The translations under genes and the position numbers were made by a program. DNA of 30,391 nucleotides from IMG/VR virus record IMGVR_UViG_3300020436_000053, positions 1 through 30,391 of that record; one strand, 5' to 3'. Shown piece by piece: positions 4,676-16,147 of this stretch (position 1 is the stretch's first letter; each line of letters starts with the position of its first letter). The notes below the pieces were generated by a model, which worked only from the letters and a program-made list of their open reading frames with translations, made no database searches and had not been told where the DNA came from. Source of the DNA: a virus.

Positions 4676-4908
4676 TAGAACAAAATTTTCTTACAAAAAA
4701 TAAATTTACTAAACTGATTGAAAAAACGGTAACAGATTTAAATGTTCCATATATGGAAGCAATACTTCATGTATGTGAAAAAAATGATATCGAACCAGAA
4801 GATGTAAAAAAATTTATTTCACCAGTCATTAAAGGTAAAGTAGAAGCAGAGGCAATGGAGCTTAATTACTTACCCAAAATGAATACTTTAGATAGTGCTT
4901 TTTCTTAA
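4672..4908 (+). CDS. gp33: Late transcription coactivator gp33
   Basis: This 78-residue protein matches the conserved part of T4 gp33 (112 residues): helix NKFTKLIEKTV, then VPYMEAILHVCEKNDIEP, KFISPVIKGKVEAEA and the ending NTLDSAFS. In T4, gp33 binds the beta-flap of RNA polymerase and, through its hydrophobic/acidic C-terminus, the gp45 sliding clamp, coupling late transcription to replication. The C-terminal TLDxxF here fits such a clamp-binding tail. It lacks the first roughly 30 residues of the T4 protein. It is coupled to the upstream gene by ATGA overlap and so should come from the promoter at 2804. The exact TATAAATA elements elsewhere in the window are its expected targets. Confidence 0.92.
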   Translation: MIEQNFLTKNKFTKLIEKTVTDLNVPYMEAILHVCEKNDIEPEDVKKFISPVIKGKVEAEAMELNYLPKMNTLDSAFS

Positions 4909-4916
4909 AAAAAGTG

Positions 4917-4945
4917 TTTACAAAGTATAAAAAATGTAGTATAAT
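4917..4945 (+). promoter_or_regulatory. Strong sigma70-type promoter for gp32
   Basis: TTTACA (4917-4922), a 17-base spacer and a perfect TATAAT (4940-4945). It starts 8 bases after the gp33 stop. The upstream half of its spacer (AAGTATAAAA) is nearly identical to that of the promoter at 2804, so both belong to one class. The predicted start at about 4952 gives gp32 a leader of about 74 bases. Confidence 0.88.
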
Positions 4946-4961
4946 AATACTATATATTATG

Positions 4962-4982
4962 TGTTCCGCTTATACAGGAACA
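4962..4982 (+). promoter_or_regulatory. Leader hairpin of the gp32 mRNA, candidate autoregulatory element
   Basis: TGTTCC (4962-4967) pairs with GGAACA (4977-4982) across a 9-base loop, from -64 to -44 relative to the gp32 ATG. T4 gp32 represses its own translation by nucleating on a pseudoknot at a comparable distance upstream and then coating an unstructured AU-rich stretch. The following 30 bases here are also AU-rich and carry the direct repeat ATATTTCAG at 4986-4994 and 4998-5006. No convincing pseudoknot partner for the loop was found. Confidence 0.5.
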
Positions 4983-5025
4983 TTTATATTTCAGTTAATA
5001 TTTCAGCAATACGGAGAAACATACA

Positions 5026-5931
5026 ATGTCGTTTTCTAATTTAAAAAGAAATAGAGATCAAATCTCAAAATTACTCAAAGCTGCGGAATCAAATAGCGGT
5101 TCGAGTGAAAAAAAATCCTACGTAGATGATAGAATATGGAAACCAACAGTAGATCAAGCTGGTAATGGTTATTCTGTTATTCGTTTTTTACCTGCAAGTG
5201 AGGGTGCAGAATTACCTTGGGTAAGATTTTGGGATCACGGATTCAAAGGTCCTACTGGTTTATGGTATATTGAAAATTCTTTAACATCTATCGGTCAAGC
5301 AGATCCAGTAGGTGAATTAAATTCAAGATTATGGAATTCTGGTAATGATGCTGATAAAGAAAAAGCAAGAAATCAAAAACGTAGATTACACTATGTAACA
5401 AACATTTTTGTAAAATCTGATCCAGGTAATCCAACAAATGAAGGTAAAGTTTTTATCTTTAAATTTGGTAAAAAAATCTTTGATAAAATCATGGACGTAA
5501 TGCAACCACAATTTGCAGATGAAGATCCAATTAATCCATTTGATTTTTGGGAGGGTGCAGATTTTAAACTAAAAATCAGAAATGTAGAAGGTTATCGTAA
5601 TTATGATAAATCAGAATTTGCAGGTCAATCTGCTTTATCTGAAGATGATACTAAACTTGAAGATGTCTACAACAAAATGTATGGTTTAAAAGAATTTGTT
5701 GATCCTACAAACTACAAAACCTATGATGAATTGAAAGAAAAACTCAATAGAGTTTTGGGTGAGGATACTGTTTCAATGGGCGCACCAACTATGAAACAAG
5801 AAATTCAAATGAATGAACCAGAAATGCCTGTGCAAAATGTTACACAAATATCTGAAACACCTTCTTCAAATGAAAAAGAAGATGAAGATGATACAATGTC
5901 ATACTTTGCTAAACTTGCACAAGCACAATAA
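5026..5931 (+). CDS. gp32: Single-stranded DNA-binding protein gp32
   Basis: This 301-residue protein (T4: also 301) protects ssDNA at the replication fork and coordinates recombination and replication proteins. Visible features are the basic N-terminal LAST-type motif KRNR at 7-10 (cooperativity), IWKPTVDQAGNGYSVIRFLP starting the OB-fold core, KRRLHYVTNIFVKSDPG, GKVFIFKFGKKIFDKI and WEGADFKLKI in the core, and an acidic C-terminal tail (SNEKEDEDDTMSYFAKLAQ) for protein partners. The zinc ligands of T4 gp32 (His64, Cys77, Cys86, Cys90) are missing: the protein has no Cys at all, and the corresponding loop reads ENSLTSIGQADPVGELN. It has its own promoter, leader hairpin and GGAG Shine-Dalgarno at 5013-5016. 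It is convergent with the next gene. Confidence 0.96.
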   Translation: MSFSNLKRNRDQISKLLKAAESNSGSSEKKSYVDDRIWKPTVDQAGNGYSVIRFLPASEGAELPWVRFWDHGFKGPTGLWYIENSLTSIGQADPVGELNSRLWNSGNDADKEKARNQKRRLHYVTNIFVKSDPGNPTNEGKVFIFKFGKKIFDKIMDVMQPQFADEDPINPFDFWEGADFKLKIRNVEGYRNYDKSEFAGQSALSEDDTKLEDVYNKMYGLKEFVDPTNYKTYDELKEKLNRVLGEDTVSMGAPTMKQEIQMNEPEMPVQNVTQISETPSSNEKEDEDDTMSYFAKLAQAQ

Positions 5932-5956
5932 TAGGGTTGTTACTTAATAAACACGC

Positions 5957-5978
5957 GAGGGGCCATGGTTAGCCCCTC
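5957..5978. terminator. Hairpin between convergent genes
   Basis: GAGGGGC (5957-5963) and GCCCCTC (5972-5978) form a 7-bp G+C-rich stem with an 8-base loop between gp32 (+) and the small membrane protein (-), overlapping the latter's stop codon. No T run follows on either strand, so it is not a textbook intrinsic terminator, but its position suits a bidirectional stop or an mRNA 3'-end protector. Confidence 0.55.
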
Positions 5979-6192
5979 AGAAACCTCTTAATCTGTTTCT
6001 AAGATTTTCCATTTCTTCATCATAATCATCAAAACTAACATTTTCACTTCTTATCATAGCATCAATTGCTTTCCAATCAGTTGGTTCAATTTCATGTGTA
6101 TTTTCTTCTATAAACAATGTTGCTAATTGTGCAATAAGCCATATACAACCAACTGTACCAAAAATGTATAAAAAAACTATGTAAAGAAACAT
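5977..6192 (-). CDS. Small single-pass membrane protein, 71 residues
   Basis: Residues 3-28 form one hydrophobic helix (IVFLYIFGTVGCIWLIAQLA); the rest is an acidic soluble tail with a helix (DYDEEMENLRNRLRGF). The start overlaps the stop of the tape-measure-like gene as TAATG, so the two are translationally coupled, and it is the last gene of the leftward late operon. Its position directly after a tape-measure gene could suit a membrane component linked to tail or DNA injection, or a lysis accessory, but there is no motif to decide. Confidence 0.72.
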   Translation of the reverse strand: MFLYIVFLYIFGTVGCIWLIAQLATLFIEENTHEIEPTDWKAIDAMIRSENVSFDDYDEEMENLRNRLRGF

Positions 6193-8336
6193 TATTGTGG
6201 AAATGATATGTCGTCTAATATATCACTAGTTCTTACTGGACTATCACCAGAAAAAACATTAGTAGATCCACCCGATGTTGATGAATTATCACTAATATTG
6301 TTAATTACAACACCACCAGAAATTTGTCTTTGTATATCAATTAAAACTTCTAATTGCTTTAAAGCTGTATCATCTGGTGGTATACTTATTAAAATACTTT
6401 TTAATTGATCTGCAACGTCAGTAGCTATTGAAGATGAGTCTACTGGATTAGGTGAAGGTGAAACATTTTCGTTTAATGCTTCTCTTAATGATGTTATATT
6501 TTTTACTGCGGTAGCATAATCAATTTCTGAACTTGCAAGACCTTTAAATTCTCCAATTACTTTATTTCTTTGACCACGAATATCTCCACCCATTATTGAT
6601 TTTTCAATAACAGGAACCGCTTCTAGTAAATCATCTGCAAAATCTTTTATTTTAAATTTACTACCATCAAATTCAAAATCTGAAAGTTTCCCCATAGAAA
6701 TTGCTAATCTATCAACAGCATCTGCACCTACTGTTAATCCTTGAGCTTCTTGTGATATCATTCTAATGTTTTCAAATGGACTATCATTACCAGCAAAGAA
6801 ATTTACAATTGATGCTCCTGCATTTTTTAATGAACCAACAAAAGAACCACTAGCAAATGCATTTAATCCATCTTTAATTTTACTCATTGCTGCCGCAAAT
6901 GAATTAGCATTTTGTTCTAAATTTTCATTTTCTTTTACAATGGATAAAATATTATTAACTCGTCTTTTTGTATCTAATGTCCAGTCACCTCTACCTTCAC
7001 CAGGTGATATCCAATCACTTAGTGCATTACTGATACCACTTACTGTGGCTCCAATAGAAAATACCGCTAAACCAGCAGCAATTCCTGTCATTGTTTTTAG
7101 AAATACTGCTGTATCTGCACCAACATTTTCAAGAGATGCTATACTTAATAAATTTTGAACATTTTTTACGACTTCTAATGTCCAATCTGTGCCATCAGCA
7201 AACCAGTCCGCTAACATATCCGCGCCGCCTGCTACTACAGCTCCTGCACCAAAAGCAGCTAAACCCGCACCCAATCCAGTTAATGCAAGAACTATAGTAC
7301 CACCTTTTAATAGTAAACTAATATTACTACCAGCATCATCAGATATACTTAATAAGTTATTAACATTTTCTCTAATATTTTTACCAAAGTCCTTACCACC
7401 TACTGCTAAAGCACCACCAGCCGCAGCTCCACCTGCACCAAAGACCGCTAAACCTACACCCAAACCAACTAAAGCAGCACTTACACCAGCACCATCAAAT
7501 AACATTTCTAATGCACCAAGCGTGAAATTATTAGGTATACTTAATAATGTTATTACATTTTCACTTACTTGATTTGCCCAATCTGGTTCTGAAAATTTTT
7601 GAACACCGGCTGCAACTGCAGATCCAGCTCCAAAATATAATAAACCAGCACCTAATCCAGTTAATGCAACTATTACAGCACCATCACTAAAAAGTGTTTT
7701 TAGCGTACTTTCATTATATCTTTCACCAATAGAAAGTAATGTTGTAACATTATTTTTAACTGTTTCTGCCCAGTCACCTTGACCAAAATATTCTATACCA
7801 GCATTAACACCAGCTGCCACAGCTGAACCAGCAGCAAAAAATACTAAAGCGGTACCGAGTGTTTTTAGTGCAACTATTACTGCACCATCACTTAAAAGAG
7901 TTTTTAAAGTATTTTCATTATATCTTTCACCGATTGATAATAATGTTGTAACATTTTCTTTTATTTTATCCGCATCAATAAGATTAAGAGCAGTAAGTCC
8001 TATTAAACCAACTAATGCACTACCACCAACTAATTTAACTAAACCACCTAAAGCGCCAGTAATACCCGCTAGCATTCCACCTATACCACCTAAAGCAGAT
8101 TTACCTCCAGAAATTACACTTCCACCCATTTCTTTAATTTTACTTAAAGATGATCTATCATTTTTCTTTTCTCTTTTGGATTCTAAATCATCAGATGCAG
8201 TCATAGAAGATTTTTTGATAAAATCACCAAATAAATTAGTTAACTCCTGTAAACGCTCAGAAGTTTTATCGTGACCTTGTTCAATAGAAGTTCTATTTCT
8301 TTTTAGTTCTTCTGCTATTATTTTTAAATCCGACAT
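6192..8336 (-). CDS. Tape-measure-like tail/baseplate hub protein built of tandem repeats
   Basis: 714 residues. After a coiled-coil-like N-terminus (1-60) and a Gly-rich hydrophobic stretch (70-120), a unit of 64-68 residues repeats from about residues 128, 196, 260, 324, 392 and 460. Each starts (N)V.NLLSI, followed by a hydrophobic LTGLGAGLxxFGAG-type segment and usually a DW or DF near the end. The C-terminal 190 residues are helical and end in a Ser/Gly-rich tail. Length, alternating hydrophobic segments and the location directly after gp26/gp51-like chaperone-type genes point to the tail-length tape measure (position of T4 gp29). At 0.15 nm per helical residue 714 residues span about 107 nm, a plausible tail length. 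I see no direct sequence match to T4 gp29, so a different hub protein is possible. Confidence 0.7.
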   Translation of the reverse strand: MSDLKIIAEELKRNRTSIEQGHDKTSERLQELTNLFGDFIKKSSMTASDDLESKREKKNDRSSLSKIKEMGGSVISGGKSALGGIGGMLAGITGALGGLVKLVGGSALVGLIGLTALNLIDADKIKENVTTLLSIGERYNENTLKTLLSDGAVIVALKTLGTALVFFAAGSAVAAGVNAGIEYFGQGDWAETVKNNVTTLLSIGERYNESTLKTLFSDGAVIVALTGLGAGLLYFGAGSAVAAGVQKFSEPDWANQVSENVITLLSIPNNFTLGALEMLFDGAGVSAALVGLGVGLAVFGAGGAAAGGALAVGGKDFGKNIRENVNNLLSISDDAGSNISLLLKGGTIVLALTGLGAGLAAFGAGAVVAGGADMLADWFADGTDWTLEVVKNVQNLLSIASLENVGADTAVFLKTMTGIAAGLAVFSIGATVSGISNALSDWISPGEGRGDWTLDTKRRVNNILSIVKENENLEQNANSFAAAMSKIKDGLNAFASGSFVGSLKNAGASIVNFFAGNDSPFENIRMISQEAQGLTVGADAVDRLAISMGKLSDFEFDGSKFKIKDFADDLLEAVPVIEKSIMGGDIRGQRNKVIGEFKGLASSEIDYATAVKNITSLREALNENVSPSPNPVDSSSIATDVADQLKSILISIPPDDTALKQLEVLIDIQRQISGGVVINNISDNSSTSGGSTNVFSGDSPVRTSDILDDISFPQ
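7640..7960 (-). repeat. Near-identical DNA repeats in the tape-measure-like gene
   Basis: About 90 bases around 7661-7750 recur at about 7865-7954, shifted by 204 bases (68 codons). They encode DGAVIVAL preceded by NVTTLLSIGERYNE in both copies. These are the two most recently duplicated of the repeats; the others are diverged. Confidence 0.8.
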
Positions 8337-8536
8337 TATCGTGCCTTCATCTTTGCTCTTTCAGCTTCTAGTTTTTGTTTTTCTAATTTAATATAATTTT
8401 GTAATAAACTCAAATATATTTCTCTTTCCCATGGTATCATCATCTCTATCTCATTTAACGAATATTTACAATGTTGCATTAAACTAAAATTTGTTTCATA
8501 AAAATTTTCAAGTGTCTCATGAGATAGAGTTAGGAT
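8336..8536 (-). CDS. gp51: gp51-like reading frame, probably made only as a -1 frameshift extension of gp26
   Basis: From 8536 down to the TAA at 8338-8336 an open frame of 66 codons reads ILTLSHETLENFYETNFS..., then MMIPWEREIYLSLL and a charged helical end. The IPWEREIY block resembles, from memory, T4-type gp51 (baseplate hub assembly catalyst). The first 19 codons contain no ATG, GTG or TTG; the first ATG is at 8479-8477, without a good Shine-Dalgarno and past much of the domain. The frame is -1 relative to gp26, and the gp26 end carries T TTT TTA at 8542-8536, so a fusion of 301 residues (235 from gp26, 66 from here) is predicted. The stop overlaps the tape-measure start as TAATG. A short independent protein from 8479 is the alternative. 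Confidence 0.75.
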   Translation of the reverse strand: MLTLSHETLENFYETNFSLMQHCKYSLNEIEMMIPWEREIYLSLLQNYIKLEKQKLEAERAKMKAR

Positions 8537-8542
8537 AAAAAA
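8444..8542 (-). promoter_or_regulatory. Predicted programmed -1 ribosomal frameshift site (slippery heptamer plus stem)
   Basis: On the - strand the heptamer T TTT TTA (8542-8536) is in the correct phase with gp26 codons TTT and TTA, two codons before the gp26 stop. After a 6-base spacer (TCCTAA) the arm CTCTATCTCAT (8529-8519) begins; it is exactly complementary over 11 bases to ATGAGATAGAG (8454-8444), with a 64-base loop between. Heptamer, 6-base spacer, stable stem and a conserved downstream -1 frame are the standard parts of -1 frameshifting, as in the P2 E/E' and lambda G/GT tail chaperones. Confidence 0.78.
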
Positions 8543-9240
8543 TTGGCCAATCCTTCCATATCACCTTTAATATTTTCTTTACAACCACCACATTCTATAT
8601 CATAACTATGTCTTAATTTTGGTATTTCTTGTATAAAATCTTTTACTTTAGAAAATTGTCTTGAATCCATCGACTCAATAAAATCTGTTAATTCTTCTTT
8701 ACTTACTTCTTTTAAATTTATTCTTTCATCATCTGTTATAACTGTTTTAAATACAAAATTCATCATAGAAAATAATTGTTCTGATGCAGTTGATTTTATA
8801 CCAAGATCAGAATTTAATACATCACTAAATGTTGGATAATCTAATTCGACTTGTATTTTATCTGTTAATTGAACTAATTTTTCAGTTTCTGGTTTTTTAA
8901 TTTCTATTTCTTCTATATTAACATCTAATGTATTAGTGTGACCACAATTATTACATTTTACTCCTATTTTAGTTGTTTCACCAACACTTTTAGCTCTTAA
9001 CTTTAAGAACATATATTCCACATCAAATGTTGATAACTTATTTTCATTTATTTCAGCATCACAACACGCTTTTAATGTATCGAGAAGTGATAATAATATA
9101 GTTCTGTTATCACCACTTTCAGCTGCAATTAACATGGATTTTTCTTCTTTTATTAAAAAGGGTCTAAATCTAACTGTTTCTCCTGTAGATGGTATATTCA
9201 TTTCATACTTTGGTGTGCTATTCAATTTGGGTAGTGCCAT
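8530..9240 (-). CDS. gp26: Baseplate hub / tail assembly protein gp26
   Basis: 236 residues (T4 gp26: 208). The N-terminal GETVRFRPFLIKEEKSMLIA block is the gp26 signature. Two CxxC pairs, C96-C99 (KCNNCGHTN) and C217-C220 (ECGGC), make a likely zinc site. In T4, gp26 acts in baseplate hub assembly. Here it lies just upstream of the gp51-like frame and the tape-measure-like gene, the usual place of tail assembly chaperones, and its final codons contain a slippery heptamer. It would therefore be made in two forms: the 236-residue protein and a 301-residue frameshift fusion. It follows the tail-tube-fold gene after an 8-base gap. Confidence 0.87.
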   Translation of the reverse strand: MALPKLNSTPKYEMNIPSTGETVRFRPFLIKEEKSMLIAAESGDNRTILLSLLDTLKACCDAEINENKLSTFDVEYMFLKLRAKSVGETTKIGVKCNNCGHTNTLDVNIEEIEIKKPETEKLVQLTDKIQVELDYPTFSDVLNSDLGIKSTASEQLFSMMNFVFKTVITDDERINLKEVSKEELTDFIESMDSRQFSKVKDFIQEIPKLRHSYDIECGGCKENIKGDMEGLANFLS

Positions 9241-9248
9241 AATTTCTC

Positions 9249-9950
9249 CTATATACTAAAAAATATTGGTGTGCCGCTACGTCTTTTAAAGTTAGTATAA
9301 GACATAGCAACTGTCAACTCAAGTATTCCGTCTTGTTCGTTGTTAAAATCTATTTGACCTATTGTTGTTGGAAATGCATCAATTAGTTCTATTGAATAAG
9401 TAGATAAAGTTGCATTTATTGGTGATTGTGATAATGCTGTTCCAGTTATTGAATTTATTGTATTACTTATTGCATTGTTAAGTACGTTATTAACTATATT
9501 TTGAAAAAATGGAAATGCTAAACCAGTAGCTTTATCACCTATTGTTATTGATGTACTTGAAGATGGAATAGAATTTCTAAGTTGGTGAATTACTACTCTT
9601 TTTTGATAATTTGATTTATATGCAGCAACTTGACTATTTTCTCCAACAATTAATTTATTCCATGTGTCAAAATATTTTCTAACATAATAATCATTAGTTA
9701 ATAAAAAAGACATTGAAACATCATCTACTGCATATCCATATGCAACTTTTTCAAATTCCATACCAATTCTTCTGTCAGTAGTAAGTATTTGTTTACTTGG
9801 TATTGTTGCTGATCTACATAAAATATTTAAATTATCATTTGCTCTATCAAAACCTGGTAAAGATGGTAATTCAACAAGAAAATTATTTGGTCTTGCAATA
9901 CCACCTCTTTGGTTTATATTACTTTTTATTCTGTCTATTGATGCCGTCAT
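9249..9950 (-). CDS. Tail-tube-fold structural protein (gp54- or gp19-like)
   Basis: 233 residues, beta-rich. Motifs include ARPNNFLVELPSLPGF near the start, LCRSATIPSKQI (about 44-55), VDDVSMSFLLTNDYYVRKYFDTWNKL in two adjoining blocks (about 74-100), and near the end YSIELIDAFPTTIG and an ELTVAMSYTNFKR strand. This is the pattern of T4-type tail-tube proteins: the tube subunit gp19 (163 residues) and the tube initiator gp54 (320 residues) share this fold. The position next to gp26 favours a baseplate tube-initiation protein such as gp54; length does not decide. Its start overlaps the previous stop (ATGA), so it is coupled to the upstream gene. Confidence 0.68.
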   Translation of the reverse strand: MTASIDRIKSNINQRGGIARPNNFLVELPSLPGFDRANDNLNILCRSATIPSKQILTTDRRIGMEFEKVAYGYAVDDVSMSFLLTNDYYVRKYFDTWNKLIVGENSQVAAYKSNYQKRVVIHQLRNSIPSSSTSITIGDKATGLAFPFFQNIVNNVLNNAISNTINSITGTALSQSPINATLSTYSIELIDAFPTTIGQIDFNNEQDGILELTVAMSYTNFKRRSGTPIFFSI

Positions 9951-11067: not shown

Positions 11068-12180
11068 ATGCCATTTCAAAATATACTTAGCGGATTTAGT
11101 AGTTTAACTAATGACTTTTTTGGTAGTGGTGATCTTTTTGGTGCAGGACATCAAAGATATCCACTAGATACACATTCACAGGTTGGTTCAAAAGTTGTAT
11201 TTCAAGCTATAAAAGTACAAGCCCCATCTGCTCCAATTACCTTTGCTAAAAGTTCAACTTTTAATGAAATTAGTGGAGGCGGTGGTGGTGGAGGATTTAG
11301 TTTTTTTAGTAGTAATACTATGGGTGCTCTCGGTTCCGGTTTTAGTCAAGCATCAGGAAGAAAAATTATACCATTGAGTGGTGAAAGAGTTTCATTATTT
11401 TTACCAATATCTTTTCAAGTAAATGAAGGATTTCAATATAGTGGTGTAGAATTGGGTGCTAAGGGTGGAGCAGTTTTAAACGCTTTTAATAGTGGAAATA
11501 CTTCAATAGCTAGTAGTTTGATGCAATCTGTAAAAACTGGTGCAACATCTCTGTCAAACTTTTTTACGGGTGGAACTTTCACTGGTGATGCAGCTAAAAT
11601 TGGTGCAGCTATGGGTGCTGAGTTGATGCCAGGTGGTGTGGGTGATGCAGTTAGATTAACTGCAGGTGTTAAAATTAATCCAAATTTAAGAACTAAATTT
11701 GATGGCGTAAATATTAGAGATTTTACATTTACATTTAAATTTATACCCAAAAGTCAAAAGGAATCAATTGCTATAAGAAACATCATAAAATTTTTCAGGA
11801 TTCATGCATACCCTAAAGAATTACCTGGTAATGGACAGTTTCCAATTGCATTAGAATATCCTAATATGTTTAAAATTAAATTAAAAACACAAGTAGGTGG
11901 AACATTTAAAAATGTTGGAACTCCAATTAAATATTCTTATCTTAGAACTATATCAACAACTTATAATCCTACTAGTGCTGTTTTACACCCAGATGGTGCT
12001 CCAAATGAAATTGATTTAAGTTTAAATTTTACTGAATATAAACCACTTAGTAGACATGATGTTGCAGTTGAGGATAATGATGATGCATTTGATCAAGAAA
12101 GAAAATTTGCACCATATACTGGTGGTGCAGAACCAGTTATACCGGAATTTCCAGATGATACATCATCTGGGCCCAGATGA
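11068..12180 (+). CDS. gp48: Baseplate tail-tube cap gp48
   Basis: 370 residues (T4 gp48: 364). The C-terminal half is diagnostic: FDGVNIRDFTFTFKFIPKSQ, then IIKFFRIHAYPKELPG, LEYPNMFKIKLK, TPIKYSYLRTISTTYNPTSA, and PDGAPNEIDLSLNFTEYKPL. In T4, gp48 caps the hub and with gp54 starts tail-tube polymerisation. The N-terminal third contains a Gly run (GGGGGGG, about residues 70-76) and hydrophobic Ala/Gly-rich segments (about 140-200). The first gene of the rightward late operon, it has an AGGT Shine-Dalgarno. Its last codons and stop lie in a 22-bp palindrome. Confidence 0.88.
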   Translation: MPFQNILSGFSSLTNDFFGSGDLFGAGHQRYPLDTHSQVGSKVVFQAIKVQAPSAPITFAKSSTFNEISGGGGGGGFSFFSSNTMGALGSGFSQASGRKIIPLSGERVSLFLPISFQVNEGFQYSGVELGAKGGAVLNAFNSGNTSIASSLMQSVKTGATSLSNFFTGGTFTGDAAKIGAAMGAELMPGGVGDAVRLTAGVKINPNLRTKFDGVNIRDFTFTFKFIPKSQKESIAIRNIIKFFRIHAYPKELPGNGQFPIALEYPNMFKIKLKTQVGGTFKNVGTPIKYSYLRTISTTYNPTSAVLHPDGAPNEIDLSLNFTEYKPLSRHDVAVEDNDDAFDQERKFAPYTGGAEPVIPEFPDDTSSGPR

Positions 12181-12182
12181 TG
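12151..12182 (+). repeat. Perfect 22-bp palindrome and competing hairpin at the gp48 stop
   Basis: Positions 12161-12182 are a perfect palindrome: CATCATCTGG, centre GC, CCAGATGATG. An extra copy of CCAGATGAT at 12151-12159 can pair instead with ATCATCTGG at 12162-12170 (2-base centre). The middle arm therefore has two alternative partners, giving mutually exclusive RNA hairpins across the gp48 stop codon (12178-12180). No T run follows, so RNA processing, stability or control of gp53 translation is likelier than termination. Confidence 0.75.
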
Positions 12183-12208
12183 ACATGAGTTTAATTTAGG
12201 AGAATATA

Positions 12209-12940
12209 ATGTCAAGTTATTTTAAAAAATATCCAGCTGTAGATTACTTTTTTGGAAATGAAGGATTATCTAATAAAGTTGAAAACATTGCTGTATTTTC
12301 TGACGTTATAGATCAAATTAGAGATGCCACTACATCTTATCACGATTATTATATTTTACCAAATGAAAGACCAGATCAAGTATCTTTTAAAATATATGGA
12401 ACAACTGATTTTCATTGGACGTTTTATTTAATGAACAATCATCTAAGAGAAAGAGGTTGGCCATTATCAAATGAAAAACTTTATCAATATGCGGTTGATA
12501 ACTATACTGAAAGGGTTATAGATACACAAACCGTTTTAACTGATAAGTATGCAATAGGTAATGAAGTAGAAAGTTTAACAAACTTTGCAACAGGAAATGT
12601 TGTACATAGAAATTTAGATTTAGGTCAAGTTTGGATTACTGGTGGTAATGAAAAAGATTTTACAACTGGTGAAGTAGTTAGAACAACTACAACTATAGTT
12701 GACGAAATATTAGTTATAAGGGCTACATCTAAGCGTTTAAATGCGGTACATCACTATGAAAATGCAGCTGGTGAATACGTAGATATAGACCCAACAGCAC
12801 CCAGACCAGCTATATTTACAGAAAAAACTTGGTTAGATGAATTAACAAGACAGAATGATGAATTAAAACAAATTAGAGTAATTAGACCTGGTTTAATAGG
12901 AGAAGTAGTACGATCTTTTAGTAGTGCTTTATTATCATAA
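12209..12940 (+). CDS. gp53: Baseplate wedge protein gp53
   Basis: 243 residues (T4 gp53: 196). The N-terminal SSYFKKYPAVDYFFGNEG and IDQIRDATTSYHDYYILPNE, followed by RPDQVSFKIYGTTDFHWTFY and LMNNHLRERGWPLS, are the gp53 pattern. The RPDxxSxxIYGxxxxxW part is the LysM-like segment that joins neighbouring wedges around the hub. About 50 residues more than T4 are present in the middle (about 120-190, beta-rich). It ends with a helix typical of gp53 (DELKQIRVIRPGLI). Strong Shine-Dalgarno TAGGAGA; the stop overlaps the next start as TAATG. Confidence 0.93.
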   Translation: MSSYFKKYPAVDYFFGNEGLSNKVENIAVFSDVIDQIRDATTSYHDYYILPNERPDQVSFKIYGTTDFHWTFYLMNNHLRERGWPLSNEKLYQYAVDNYTERVIDTQTVLTDKYAIGNEVESLTNFATGNVVHRNLDLGQVWITGGNEKDFTTGEVVRTTTTIVDEILVIRATSKRLNAVHHYENAAGEYVDIDPTAPRPAIFTEKTWLDELTRQNDELKQIRVIRPGLIGEVVRSFSSALLS

Positions 12941-14322
12941 TGAGTGAAATAAGAAGTAGTTTTCAAGTACAATCAATTTCTTTACAATCTGAAAGATATA
13001 ATCAAGTATTAGATTTATCTGGTGTATTTGCATCAATTGATATATTTGAAAGTTTAGATAAGCCATATATTACTGCTGATTTGATAGTAAATGATGATCA
13101 AAACTGGTATGAAACATATGATATACTTGGTGGTGAAAAAGTAATTATAAATTTTGTATCTGATAGAGATAAAACAGAAGGTGCATCAACTAGTTTAATA
13201 TCAAAAACTTTTTATGTACATCATGTCTTTTCAAGAAAAAGAGTAAATGAATATACACAAATTGTTTTTTTACATCTAATAGAAGATATTCAATATATTT
13301 CAAATCTACAAAATGTAAATAAATTTTATGATGGTAAAGGTCATGAAATAATAGAAAAGATATGTAATGAATTTTTAAATATAGAGTTAGCAAAAACTAA
13401 TAATCCAAAAGATAATCAACTTTACAATTTAATAGTTCCAAATATGTCACCATTAGAAGCTATTAAATGGATAACAAATAGTTTAACAACACAAAATGGG
13501 TTTCCGTTTTTTGTATTTTCTACATTTGTTGGTAATAAATTAGTTTTAAGAGATTTAGAAACTTTATTATCAGGTGAAGTAATTAATAGACAACACCCAT
13601 ACACTTGGACACCATCATCAATTCAAAATCCGAATCCTGGAGTTGCTAGAAGAGCAATAAAATCTATGGAAGCTGCTAAAGCAGAAGATTTATTTAAATT
13701 AATTAAAAATGGACACATTGGTGCTAAGTACACATATTTAAATACTGCAGCACCAGATGAAGAAACAGATTTAGAATTTGATTATGATATTGTAAAAGAT
13801 ACATTACAACCTGCAATGCAATCTGGTGAAATTTTTAGAAATCAAAAAAATCCACCATATTCACCAAATTTTAAATACAATAACAAATCATTTAATGAAT
13901 TACAAAGTAAACACTATGCATTATTTGGTGGTTCAAATCCATACAGAATAACAAACTTACCAGAAGATGATTCAAAACCTGAGTTTCCACTAGCACTTGG
14001 TGAAGCGTATGATGAGGCAGATTATAAATTGTTTATATCTGGAAGATCAATAGAACAATTATTAAAAAAATCACCAATGAACATTGGTATAAATGGTTTA
14101 GATTTTGTTGATGGTGATCACCATTATACAATAGGAAATTTATTATTCTGTAAATTTTCTAAAACTCGTGATGTTGCACTTCCACATGAAAAAGAAAGCA
14201 CACTTGATTCAAAACTTTCAGGTAATTATTTAATATATAAAGCAAGACATATGATAAAAAGAGAAAACTATGATATATCTTTTACTATAGTAAAACTAGG
14301 GAGTATGGACGCAAATGGATAA
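12940..14322 (+). CDS. gp27: Baseplate central hub protein gp27-like
   Basis: 460 residues (T4 gp27: 391). The N-terminal domain (DLSGVFASIDIFESLDKPYI, TADLIVNDDQNWYE, ILGGEKVIINF) and the following FYVHHVFSRKR segment are the tube-like beta domain typical of phage hub proteins; IIEKICNEFL and LIVPNMSPLEAIKWITNSL follow in the middle. C-terminal blocks (GNLLFCKFSKT; NYLIYKARHMIKRENYDISF) are those of the gp27/gpD hub fold. In T4 a gp27 trimer carries the gp5 spike; here the next gene is gp5, overlapping by 8 bases. It is longer than T4 by an insert in the region 225-330. Confidence 0.85.
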   Translation: MSEIRSSFQVQSISLQSERYNQVLDLSGVFASIDIFESLDKPYITADLIVNDDQNWYETYDILGGEKVIINFVSDRDKTEGASTSLISKTFYVHHVFSRKRVNEYTQIVFLHLIEDIQYISNLQNVNKFYDGKGHEIIEKICNEFLNIELAKTNNPKDNQLYNLIVPNMSPLEAIKWITNSLTTQNGFPFFVFSTFVGNKLVLRDLETLLSGEVINRQHPYTWTPSSIQNPNPGVARRAIKSMEAAKAEDLFKLIKNGHIGAKYTYLNTAAPDEETDLEFDYDIVKDTLQPAMQSGEIFRNQKNPPYSPNFKYNNKSFNELQSKHYALFGGSNPYRITNLPEDDSKPEFPLALGEAYDEADYKLFISGRSIEQLLKKSPMNIGINGLDFVDGDHHYTIGNLLFCKFSKTRDVALPHEKESTLDSKLSGNYLIYKARHMIKRENYDISFTIVKLGSMDANG

Positions 14323-16147
14323 TTTTTATGGTGATAATATAAGATGGTTCATGGGTATTGTAAAAGATTTAAAAGATCCTATCAAGATGGGCCGTGTTCG
14401 TGTCAGAATATTTGGTGTACATAGTGAAGATCAACAAGAAATACCTGATGATAAATTACCATGGGCCCAAGTTATGGCTCCAGTTACAGAAGGTGGTGTA
14501 AATAATCAGGGTAATTTTTTGGGTATACAAACTGGTGCTCGAGTCTTTGGTATTTTTCTTGATGGAAAAAATTCACAAATGCCACTTGTTTTTGGATCAA
14601 TACCACATAGTGAAACATATACATCGGAAAATGGAAAAATTGAATCCAGAACTACAACTGATGTAAATGCACAAGGTGGTGATAATGAAGTTCAAGATCC
14701 TTATGGTGTAGAAGGAAAATTTGATCAATCAAAAGCTAATTATCAAGAATTTGATCATCAAACAAAAAGAAAAGAAGAACCAGTCAATGATGAACCGCAA
14801 CAAACAAATGTAAGAAAACCCGTTTATCCAAACAATAAAGTTAAAAGAACACCATCTGGCCATGTAATTGAAATTGATGATACACCTGGAGGAGAAAGAT
14901 TACAAGTATTTCATAAATCTGGTACATTAGTTGAAATACAACCAAACGGTGACTTTGTTGCACAACATAAAAATGGATTTAGAAGTGTAACTGGTACAGA
15001 TAAATTGTATGTAACTGGTGATGTTGAATGGATGGTTGATGGTAATATTACGATATCTGCATCAAAAGATATTGTAATAGGCACAGATACAAAAATTAAA
15101 TTACTATCAACTGGACAACAACAATATTACGCTAAAGATGACATATTTGTAGAAACAGATGGTGCATATAATAATGTAAGTACTGATACATTCTTTAATG
15201 CAAATGGACCTATGGATATTAGAGGTACAAGAATTGATTTAGCAAAAGCAGATCCAATCGCTCCTGCGCCAGAAGATTTTGCATTTGCTGGTATTGAACC
15301 AGTAGAAAATGCAACAGCAGGTGGTGGCGGTACTGGTACACCCCAAGCAGTAGATGGTAGTGGAGGTTTGGGTCCACAAGATGGTAGTGGTGGTCCGTTG
15401 TCAGCTGGTGATGTTACTGAACCAGGTAATTGTACTAGAAAAAATTTAGGATCAATATCATCAAAATATGAATCCAATGGTAAACCGGGTGCTATAGGTA
15501 ATGATACCACGGGTGGTTTTTCTTATGGTTCATATCAGATTGCTACTAAAACGGGTACAATGAAAGAGTTTTTTAAATTTGTAGAAAGTGATGATAGGTA
15601 CAAAAAATTTGGAACATCATTGAATAATGCAGGTGGTAGTAGCGGTGCAGCTTCTGGTTCTTCACAATTTCAAAATGAATGGAAAAGATTAGCAAACAAT
15701 GATCCAGATTTTGGACAAGCACAACATGATTTTATACAAGGGTCACATCATAATCCAGCTGTGAGAAAAATAAAACAATCCACAGGTATAGATGTATGTG
15801 ATGGTTCATGGAGTAATGGTGTACAAGATGCAGTATGGAGTACCGCAGTACAACATGGATCTGGTGGAGCAAACACTATTGTACAGAGAGCATTAGCACG
15901 TACAGGTAAAACAGCAAGTAATGTAACAGATCAAGAACTTATAAGTGCAATATACGCAGAACGCGGTAAGAAAAATGCATCAGGTAATTTACATTATTTC
16001 AGAAATAGTACATCTGGTGTACAAAATAGTGTAGCAAATAGATTTATACAAGAAGAAAAAGATGCACTTGCAAACAGTACAAGAACATTAAATAGGGAAC
16101 TTGCTGCAACAAGTACAGCATCTGCTAAAGGATTTTATACAGGATAA
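14315..16147 (+). CDS. gp5: Central spike protein gp5 with C-terminal lysozyme-like domain
   Basis: 610 residues (T4 gp5: 575). Residues 1-100 are the OB-fold (WFMGIVKDLKDPIKMGRVRV, then RIFGVHSED, LPWAQVMAP and GARVFGIFLDG). About 185-315 is the beta-helix needle (HVIEIDDTPGGERLQVFHKS, then GTLVEIQPNGDF and many short strands). A Gly/Ser-rich linker (about 325-370) leads to a separate C-terminal domain: SKYESNGKPGAIG, GGFSYGSYQIATKTGTMKEF and DAVWSTAVQHG. This resembles lysozyme/chitosanase-like peptidoglycan hydrolases fused to spikes and VgrGs, with Glu386 the likely catalytic acid. T4 has its lysozyme between OB-fold and needle, so the order is different. The stop overlaps the PAAR start (TAATG). 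Confidence 0.9.
   Translation: MDNFYGDNIRWFMGIVKDLKDPIKMGRVRVRIFGVHSEDQQEIPDDKLPWAQVMAPVTEGGVNNQGNFLGIQTGARVFGIFLDGKNSQMPLVFGSIPHSETYTSENGKIESRTTTDVNAQGGDNEVQDPYGVEGKFDQSKANYQEFDHQTKRKEEPVNDEPQQTNVRKPVYPNNKVKRTPSGHVIEIDDTPGGERLQVFHKSGTLVEIQPNGDFVAQHKNGFRSVTGTDKLYVTGDVEWMVDGNITISASKDIVIGTDTKIKLLSTGQQQYYAKDDIFVETDGAYNNVSTDTFFNANGPMDIRGTRIDLAKADPIAPAPEDFAFAGIEPVENATAGGGGTGTPQAVDGSGGLGPQDGSGGPLSAGDVTEPGNCTRKNLGSISSKYESNGKPGAIGNDTTGGFSYGSYQIATKTGTMKEFFKFVESDDRYKKFGTSLNNAGGSSGAASGSSQFQNEWKRLANNDPDFGQAQHDFIQGSHHNPAVRKIKQSTGIDVCDGSWSNGVQDAVWSTAVQHGSGGANTIVQRALARTGKTASNVTDQELISAIYAERGKKNASGNLHYFRNSTSGVQNSVANRFIQEEKDALANSTRTLNRELAATSTASAKGFYTG

Follow-up and report, generated by a model that had tools for sequence, protein, structure and literature searches.

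A predicted −1 frameshift joining gp26 to a gp51-like frame in a marine T4-like phage, and its conservation among relatives

The window analysed here is the whole stretch of 30,391 nucleotides (positions 1 to 30,391) of IMG/VR record IMGVR_UViG_3300020436_000053, which belongs to a marine T4-like phage. Judged from its sequence and that of its relatives, gp26 and the −1 frame overlapping its 3′ end very probably (roughly 93%) constitute one tail assembly chaperone gene, expressed in a short and a long form by programmed −1 frameshifting. What the sequences show is the two reading frames, a heptamer and a −1 frame that are conserved, a T4 gp51 homologous to the predicted long form, and the cis-element statistics given below. 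Most ribosomes would stop after gp26 and release the short form of 236 aa, while a minority would slip back by one base on T TTT TTA and continue into a 301-aa gp26-gp51 fusion; the slip would be aided by a Shine-Dalgarno (SD)-like stretch upstream and, in the lineage of the window, also by a downstream stem. If the pair works as lambda G/GT does, the tape measure protein would be coated by many copies of the short chaperone and few of the long one, whose C-terminal extension would bring in subunits of the tail tube. That slippage occurs, its rate and its role in tail assembly are inferred.

Overlapping frames between the tail tube gene and a putative tape measure gene

All features of the locus lie on the minus strand. 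The putative short chaperone (TAC-N), gp26, occupies positions 8530–9240 (236 aa) and ends with GCC AAT TTT TTA TCC TAA. The first-pass annotation had pointed to an in-phase T TTT TTA near this end, a 6-base spacer, a 66-codon −1 frame lacking start codons in its first 19 codons and closing in TAATG, and products of 236 and 301 residues, and each of these can be read directly from the letters. The heptamer lies at 8542–8536, in the phase of gp26 and one codon ahead of its stop, and is followed by the spacer TCCTAA (8535–8530), which includes the stop codon itself. The −1 frame (8536–8336), predicted to encode the C-terminal 66 aa of the long form (TAC-NC), runs for 66 codons up to a TAA, has its first ATG only at codon 20 (8479), and overlaps with its stop the ATG of the following 714-aa ORF at 8336 (TAATG). 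The length of 301 aa is the sum of the 235 residues up to the leucine and the 66 of the extension. With 10 in-phase TTTTTTN in the 8,863 codons of the window's genes, the chance of finding such a site among the final codons of a given gene is approximately 0.3%. Its position is not decisive alone, and the decision rests with its conservation in relatives.

The identities of the two frames were assigned by profile searches, in which gp26 matched the Pfam family T4_baseplate (PF12322, E 2.5e-55) and phrog_150 (E 7.6e-58), and the −1 frame matched phrog_634, "baseplate hub assembly catalyst" (gp51), with E 1.9e-24. As the −1 frame also matches the C-terminus of phrog_150 (positions 235–278, E 6.7e-08), this family reaches past gp26 into the gp51 domain. 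With both domains present, the locus is by sequence a member of the T4 gp26/gp51 family.

The overlapping ORFs sit between a tail tube gene directly upstream of gp26 (9249–9950, phrog_45, E 8.7e-36) and the 714-aa ORF (6192–8336). Position and repetitive make-up suggest that the latter encodes the tape measure protein: a "NVTTLLSIGERYNE..." unit recurs in it about five times, hydrophobic stretches are present as well, and its counterparts in HTVC008M and phiM12 are annotated as tape measure. Pfam and PHROG profile searches gave no family match for this putative tape measure, and no sequence homology was found between it and annotated tape measures. On the opposite strand to gp26, genes at 11068–16147 of the window (plus strand) matched a tail tube cap (gp48), a wedge protein (gp53), a tail protein family and a gp5-like tail lysozyme, the last with a VgrG3-like C-terminal domain (PF21277, 3e-37).

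The AlphaFold2 model of gp26 (pLDDT 85.9) was fitted best in the PDB by the uncharacterised 3fgx (Z 7.8) and by 2ob9 (Z 7.1), followed by 5ir0 (5.3) and a next fit at 4.2. The second of these, the HK97 tail assembly chaperone, superimposes on residues 1–86 of gp26 with an rmsd of 4.1 over 79 residues (Z below 8) and 9% identity, from which gp26 differs by an extra domain of approximately 140 residues; the fit of the N-terminal domain, modest and short of proof, agrees with a chaperone fold. No chaperone was among the listed PDB fits of the modelled T4-type long form, and the gp26 profile had no matches among PDB sequences.

Conservation of the junction among relatives

Two sets of relatives were used, which may share a few contigs. 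The first consisted of 80 viral contigs fetched with gp26 as query, nearly all of them usable, together with six phage records, giving 85 scorable loci. The first-pass annotation had named related gp26/gp51 loci as the place to look for a conserved heptamer, and an in-phase TTTTTT was found inside the last 20 gp26 codons in 85/85, at a distance to the gp26 stop of 0 nt in 66 loci, 3 nt in 18 and 24 nt in one. Upstream of the slip site the −1 frame was startless in 78 of the 85, and in several loci (L045 and L062 among them) it opens only about one codon ahead of the slip. The second set was fetched with the alignment of the gp51 tail alone, i.e., with no selection on gp26, and here too each of the 80 contigs showed the tail in the −1 frame relative to an upstream gp26, whose stop lay 0, 3 or 24 nt behind an in-phase TTTTTT.

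Among non-redundant loci the in-phase TTTTTT was present in 94/94, as TTTTTTC (46), TTTTTTT (31), TTTTTTA (16) or TTTTTTG (1). Across 38 genes, the rest of gp26 contained only 4 in-phase T TTT TTN, while NNT TTT occupies the slip site in 38/38, a departure from the codon usage of the genes with log10 P of −12 (kinship ignored). TTT TTN and the −1 tail are also kept in the distant phages DLP6, phiM12, Ci1, YB07, ACP17, Vibrio D490 and XG4. A −1 gp51-like tail with its PW motif, lacking the run of six T, was seen in Ackermannviridae (Salmonella phage SS9, Klebsiella phage Menlow) and in Vibrio phage D506 (loci L093, L099 and L096, respectively), with junctions reading ATT TTC ATT TAA or CTT TTC AAG TAA; these phages may use another slip site or mechanism.

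Candidate stimulatory elements and competing explanations

A putative stimulator of the slip is the SD-like GGAAGGA at 8557–8551, 8 nt upstream of the heptamer. Family-wide, anti-SD pairing in the 15 nt upstream was about 1 kcal/mol stronger than in a synonymous-codon null (t −5.4, kinship ignored), and the same test at five control positions gave t values from −0.9 to +2.7 (kinship likewise ignored).

Downstream, the 11-base complementarity on which the first-pass annotation had remarked is real and exact: the 5′ arm CTCTATCTCAT (8529–8519) can form 11 bp with the 3′ arm ATGAGATAGAG (8454–8444), its exact reverse complement, and under synonymous codons a stem of 11 bp would arise with a chance of 0.4%. 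It is, as part of the signal, specific to a lineage: of the 94 non-redundant loci, 8 have it complete or almost so. It reaches 10–11 bp in L015, L019, L022, L023, L042, L043 and L066, which lie in two subclades of one 31-row clade (98), and two of its pairs are compensated, the basal one having changed from C-G to G-C and the top one from T-A to C-G. In L010 and L011, both close relatives, two C-A mismatches weaken it, and elsewhere it is absent. As a family-wide element at 8519–8529/8444–8454 the stem was rejected, since the mean pairing was 5.4 of 11 vs. 3–5 for slid versions, and no covariation was detected between the stem columns over the 94 loci. For downstream structure in general, comparison with synonymous codons gave a z of −1.36, a value modestly stronger than in gene-body controls (−0.36 to −0.96), and Rfam had no match at 8300–8700.

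The alternative that gp51 is a short protein in its own right, translated from the ATG of codon 20 (8479) or by re-initiation after the gp26 stop, agrees with that ATG being present and with public records in which short gp51 genes with internal starts are annotated. We consider it very unlikely: no SD precedes 8479 (duplex energy +0.4, vs. −7.3 for the gp26 start), the first usable start varies among relatives, yet conservation extends up to the heptamer, and the conservation of the heptamer itself would be left unexplained; in T4, moreover, the domain is fused behind a gp26 domain. Fainter still is the chance of RNA polymerase slippage at the T run, with the fusion made from edited mRNA. The site is indeed a homopolymer, and the run reaches 8 T in 23/94 loci, but it is exactly 6 T in 63/94, the window included. 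A run of 6 T is short for efficient transcriptional slippage. The heptamer also ends as TTTTTTC in 46/94, and the SD-like element and the fixed phase suit ribosomal slippage. A single gene split by a frame-breaking mutation or a sequencing error, for which nothing speaks except the split itself, is refuted by the same −1 relation recurring in every scorable locus, across independent samples.

T4, known frameshifting chaperones and the annotation of gp51

Programmed ribosomal frameshifting, the preferred reading, leaves the separate gene 51 of T4 to be accounted for, as the first-pass annotation had named relatives with a self-standing gp51 as evidence that would speak against the frameshift. 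Such relatives exist, T4 being one, although gp51 there carries its own full gp26 domain: residues 1–201 of T4 gp51 (249 aa) match the whole PF12322 model (3.9e-52), after which the protein runs into the gp51 tail (phrog_634). As a gp26-type domain followed by a gp51 tail, T4 gp51 is the long form and T4 gp26 the short one, so that the separate gene fits the idea of a short and a long product, and an in-frame long form is found in nature. Genes 26 and 51 of T4 lie on opposite strands and are divergent (4803–6229 in locus L007), and T4 gp26 ends in AAA GAG TTC TTT GAG, which holds no heptamer. In each of ten T4-like contigs, a short gp26 was accompanied by a gp51 that had a gp26-type domain (the gp51 reading was split in L108), and the tree placed the short and the long sets of T4 in one clade each, the two being joined weakly (77, with a long-branch warning). 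The window has the −1 overlap instead of this arrangement of separate, divergent short and long genes; its sole gp26-type domain is gp26, and no second long-form gene was found in the 30 kb. A broader scenario, tentative and in our judgement rather doubtful, is that frameshifted expression is ancestral in the T4 superfamily, that the signal is a composite of SD-like stretch, T6 heptamer and a lineage-specific long-range stem with compensated pairs, that the T4 lineage replaced it when it duplicated the gene into short gp26 and long gp51 and lost the heptamer, and that this signal and its turnover are so far undescribed.

In lambda G/GT and P2 E/E′ (Levin 1993; Christie 2002; Xu 2004), a short protein and its −1 extension are likewise encoded just upstream of the tape measure gene. 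The slip lies close to the 3′ end of the first ORF there as in the group of the window, which has extensions of ~60–67 aa and T TTT TTN as slip site, the likeness being drawn from layout. The lambda slip heptamer differs from T TTT TTN. The proposal of the first-pass annotation that gp26 and gp26-gp51 are the T4-like equivalent of these pairs is supported by the universal in-phase T TTT TTN and the conserved tail, startless in 78 of 85 loci, and further by the enrichment for SD-like sequence, the location of the pair between a tail tube gene and a tape-measure-like one and the presence of the HK97 chaperone among the top fits. According to a 2016 review (PMC5009743), G-T frameshifting is widely conserved "except T4", and it is this named exception that the present data tie to the other phages. 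A comparable locus exists in Vandenendeviridae/Andersonviridae (phage Adele, PMC12846349), where a conserved −1 frameshift occurs at a T run ending TAC-N and the −1 frame, stop-free across the family, is annotated as a hypothetical gene; that family is another one and has an invariant GTTTTT, whereas the group of the window has an in-phase TTTTTT.

The view that this gene pair had not been described does not hold, as both the kind and the pair appear to be known since Vladimirov, Gautam & Davidson 2022 (Virology 566:9–15), who, going by the title, identified tail assembly chaperones of T4-like phages. As relayed by PMC10885494, the short and the long form are encoded by separate genes in some T4-like phages, and PMC12846349 cites the same work for poly-T −1 signals in the TAC-N genes of T4-like phages, from which frameshifting members were probably covered as well; in light of our data, gp26 and gp51 are presumably the genes meant. 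Short and long forms are common to that system and the window, though the emphasis in the title and in PMC10885494 is on a short gene and a second, long one in place of frameshifting, and the window has one gene and a −1 site. In the literature searched, where Vladimirov et al. 2022 is represented by its title and citing papers, no full description of the gp26/gp51 pair was found. With the pair apparently known since 2022, the gain is one of breadth and cis-element detail and not of a new device; the device is of a known kind and well conserved, and the detail at the level of lineages may be new.

For annotation, it follows that gp51 of marine T4-like phages is most likely the C-terminal portion of a frameshift product and is routinely mis-annotated, and that a separate role as "assembly catalyst" in these phages is thereby most likely wrong. 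The names gp26 and gp51 ("baseplate hub") misdirect functional assignment in the genomes of many cyanophages and pelagiphages. No annotated record examined contained a joined frameshift CDS, and in cyanophage and pelagiphage records (L001–L006, L190–L192) gp51 either stood as a short gene of its own, with internal starts that vary, or was omitted. The gp51 tail was matched by 859 phage records.
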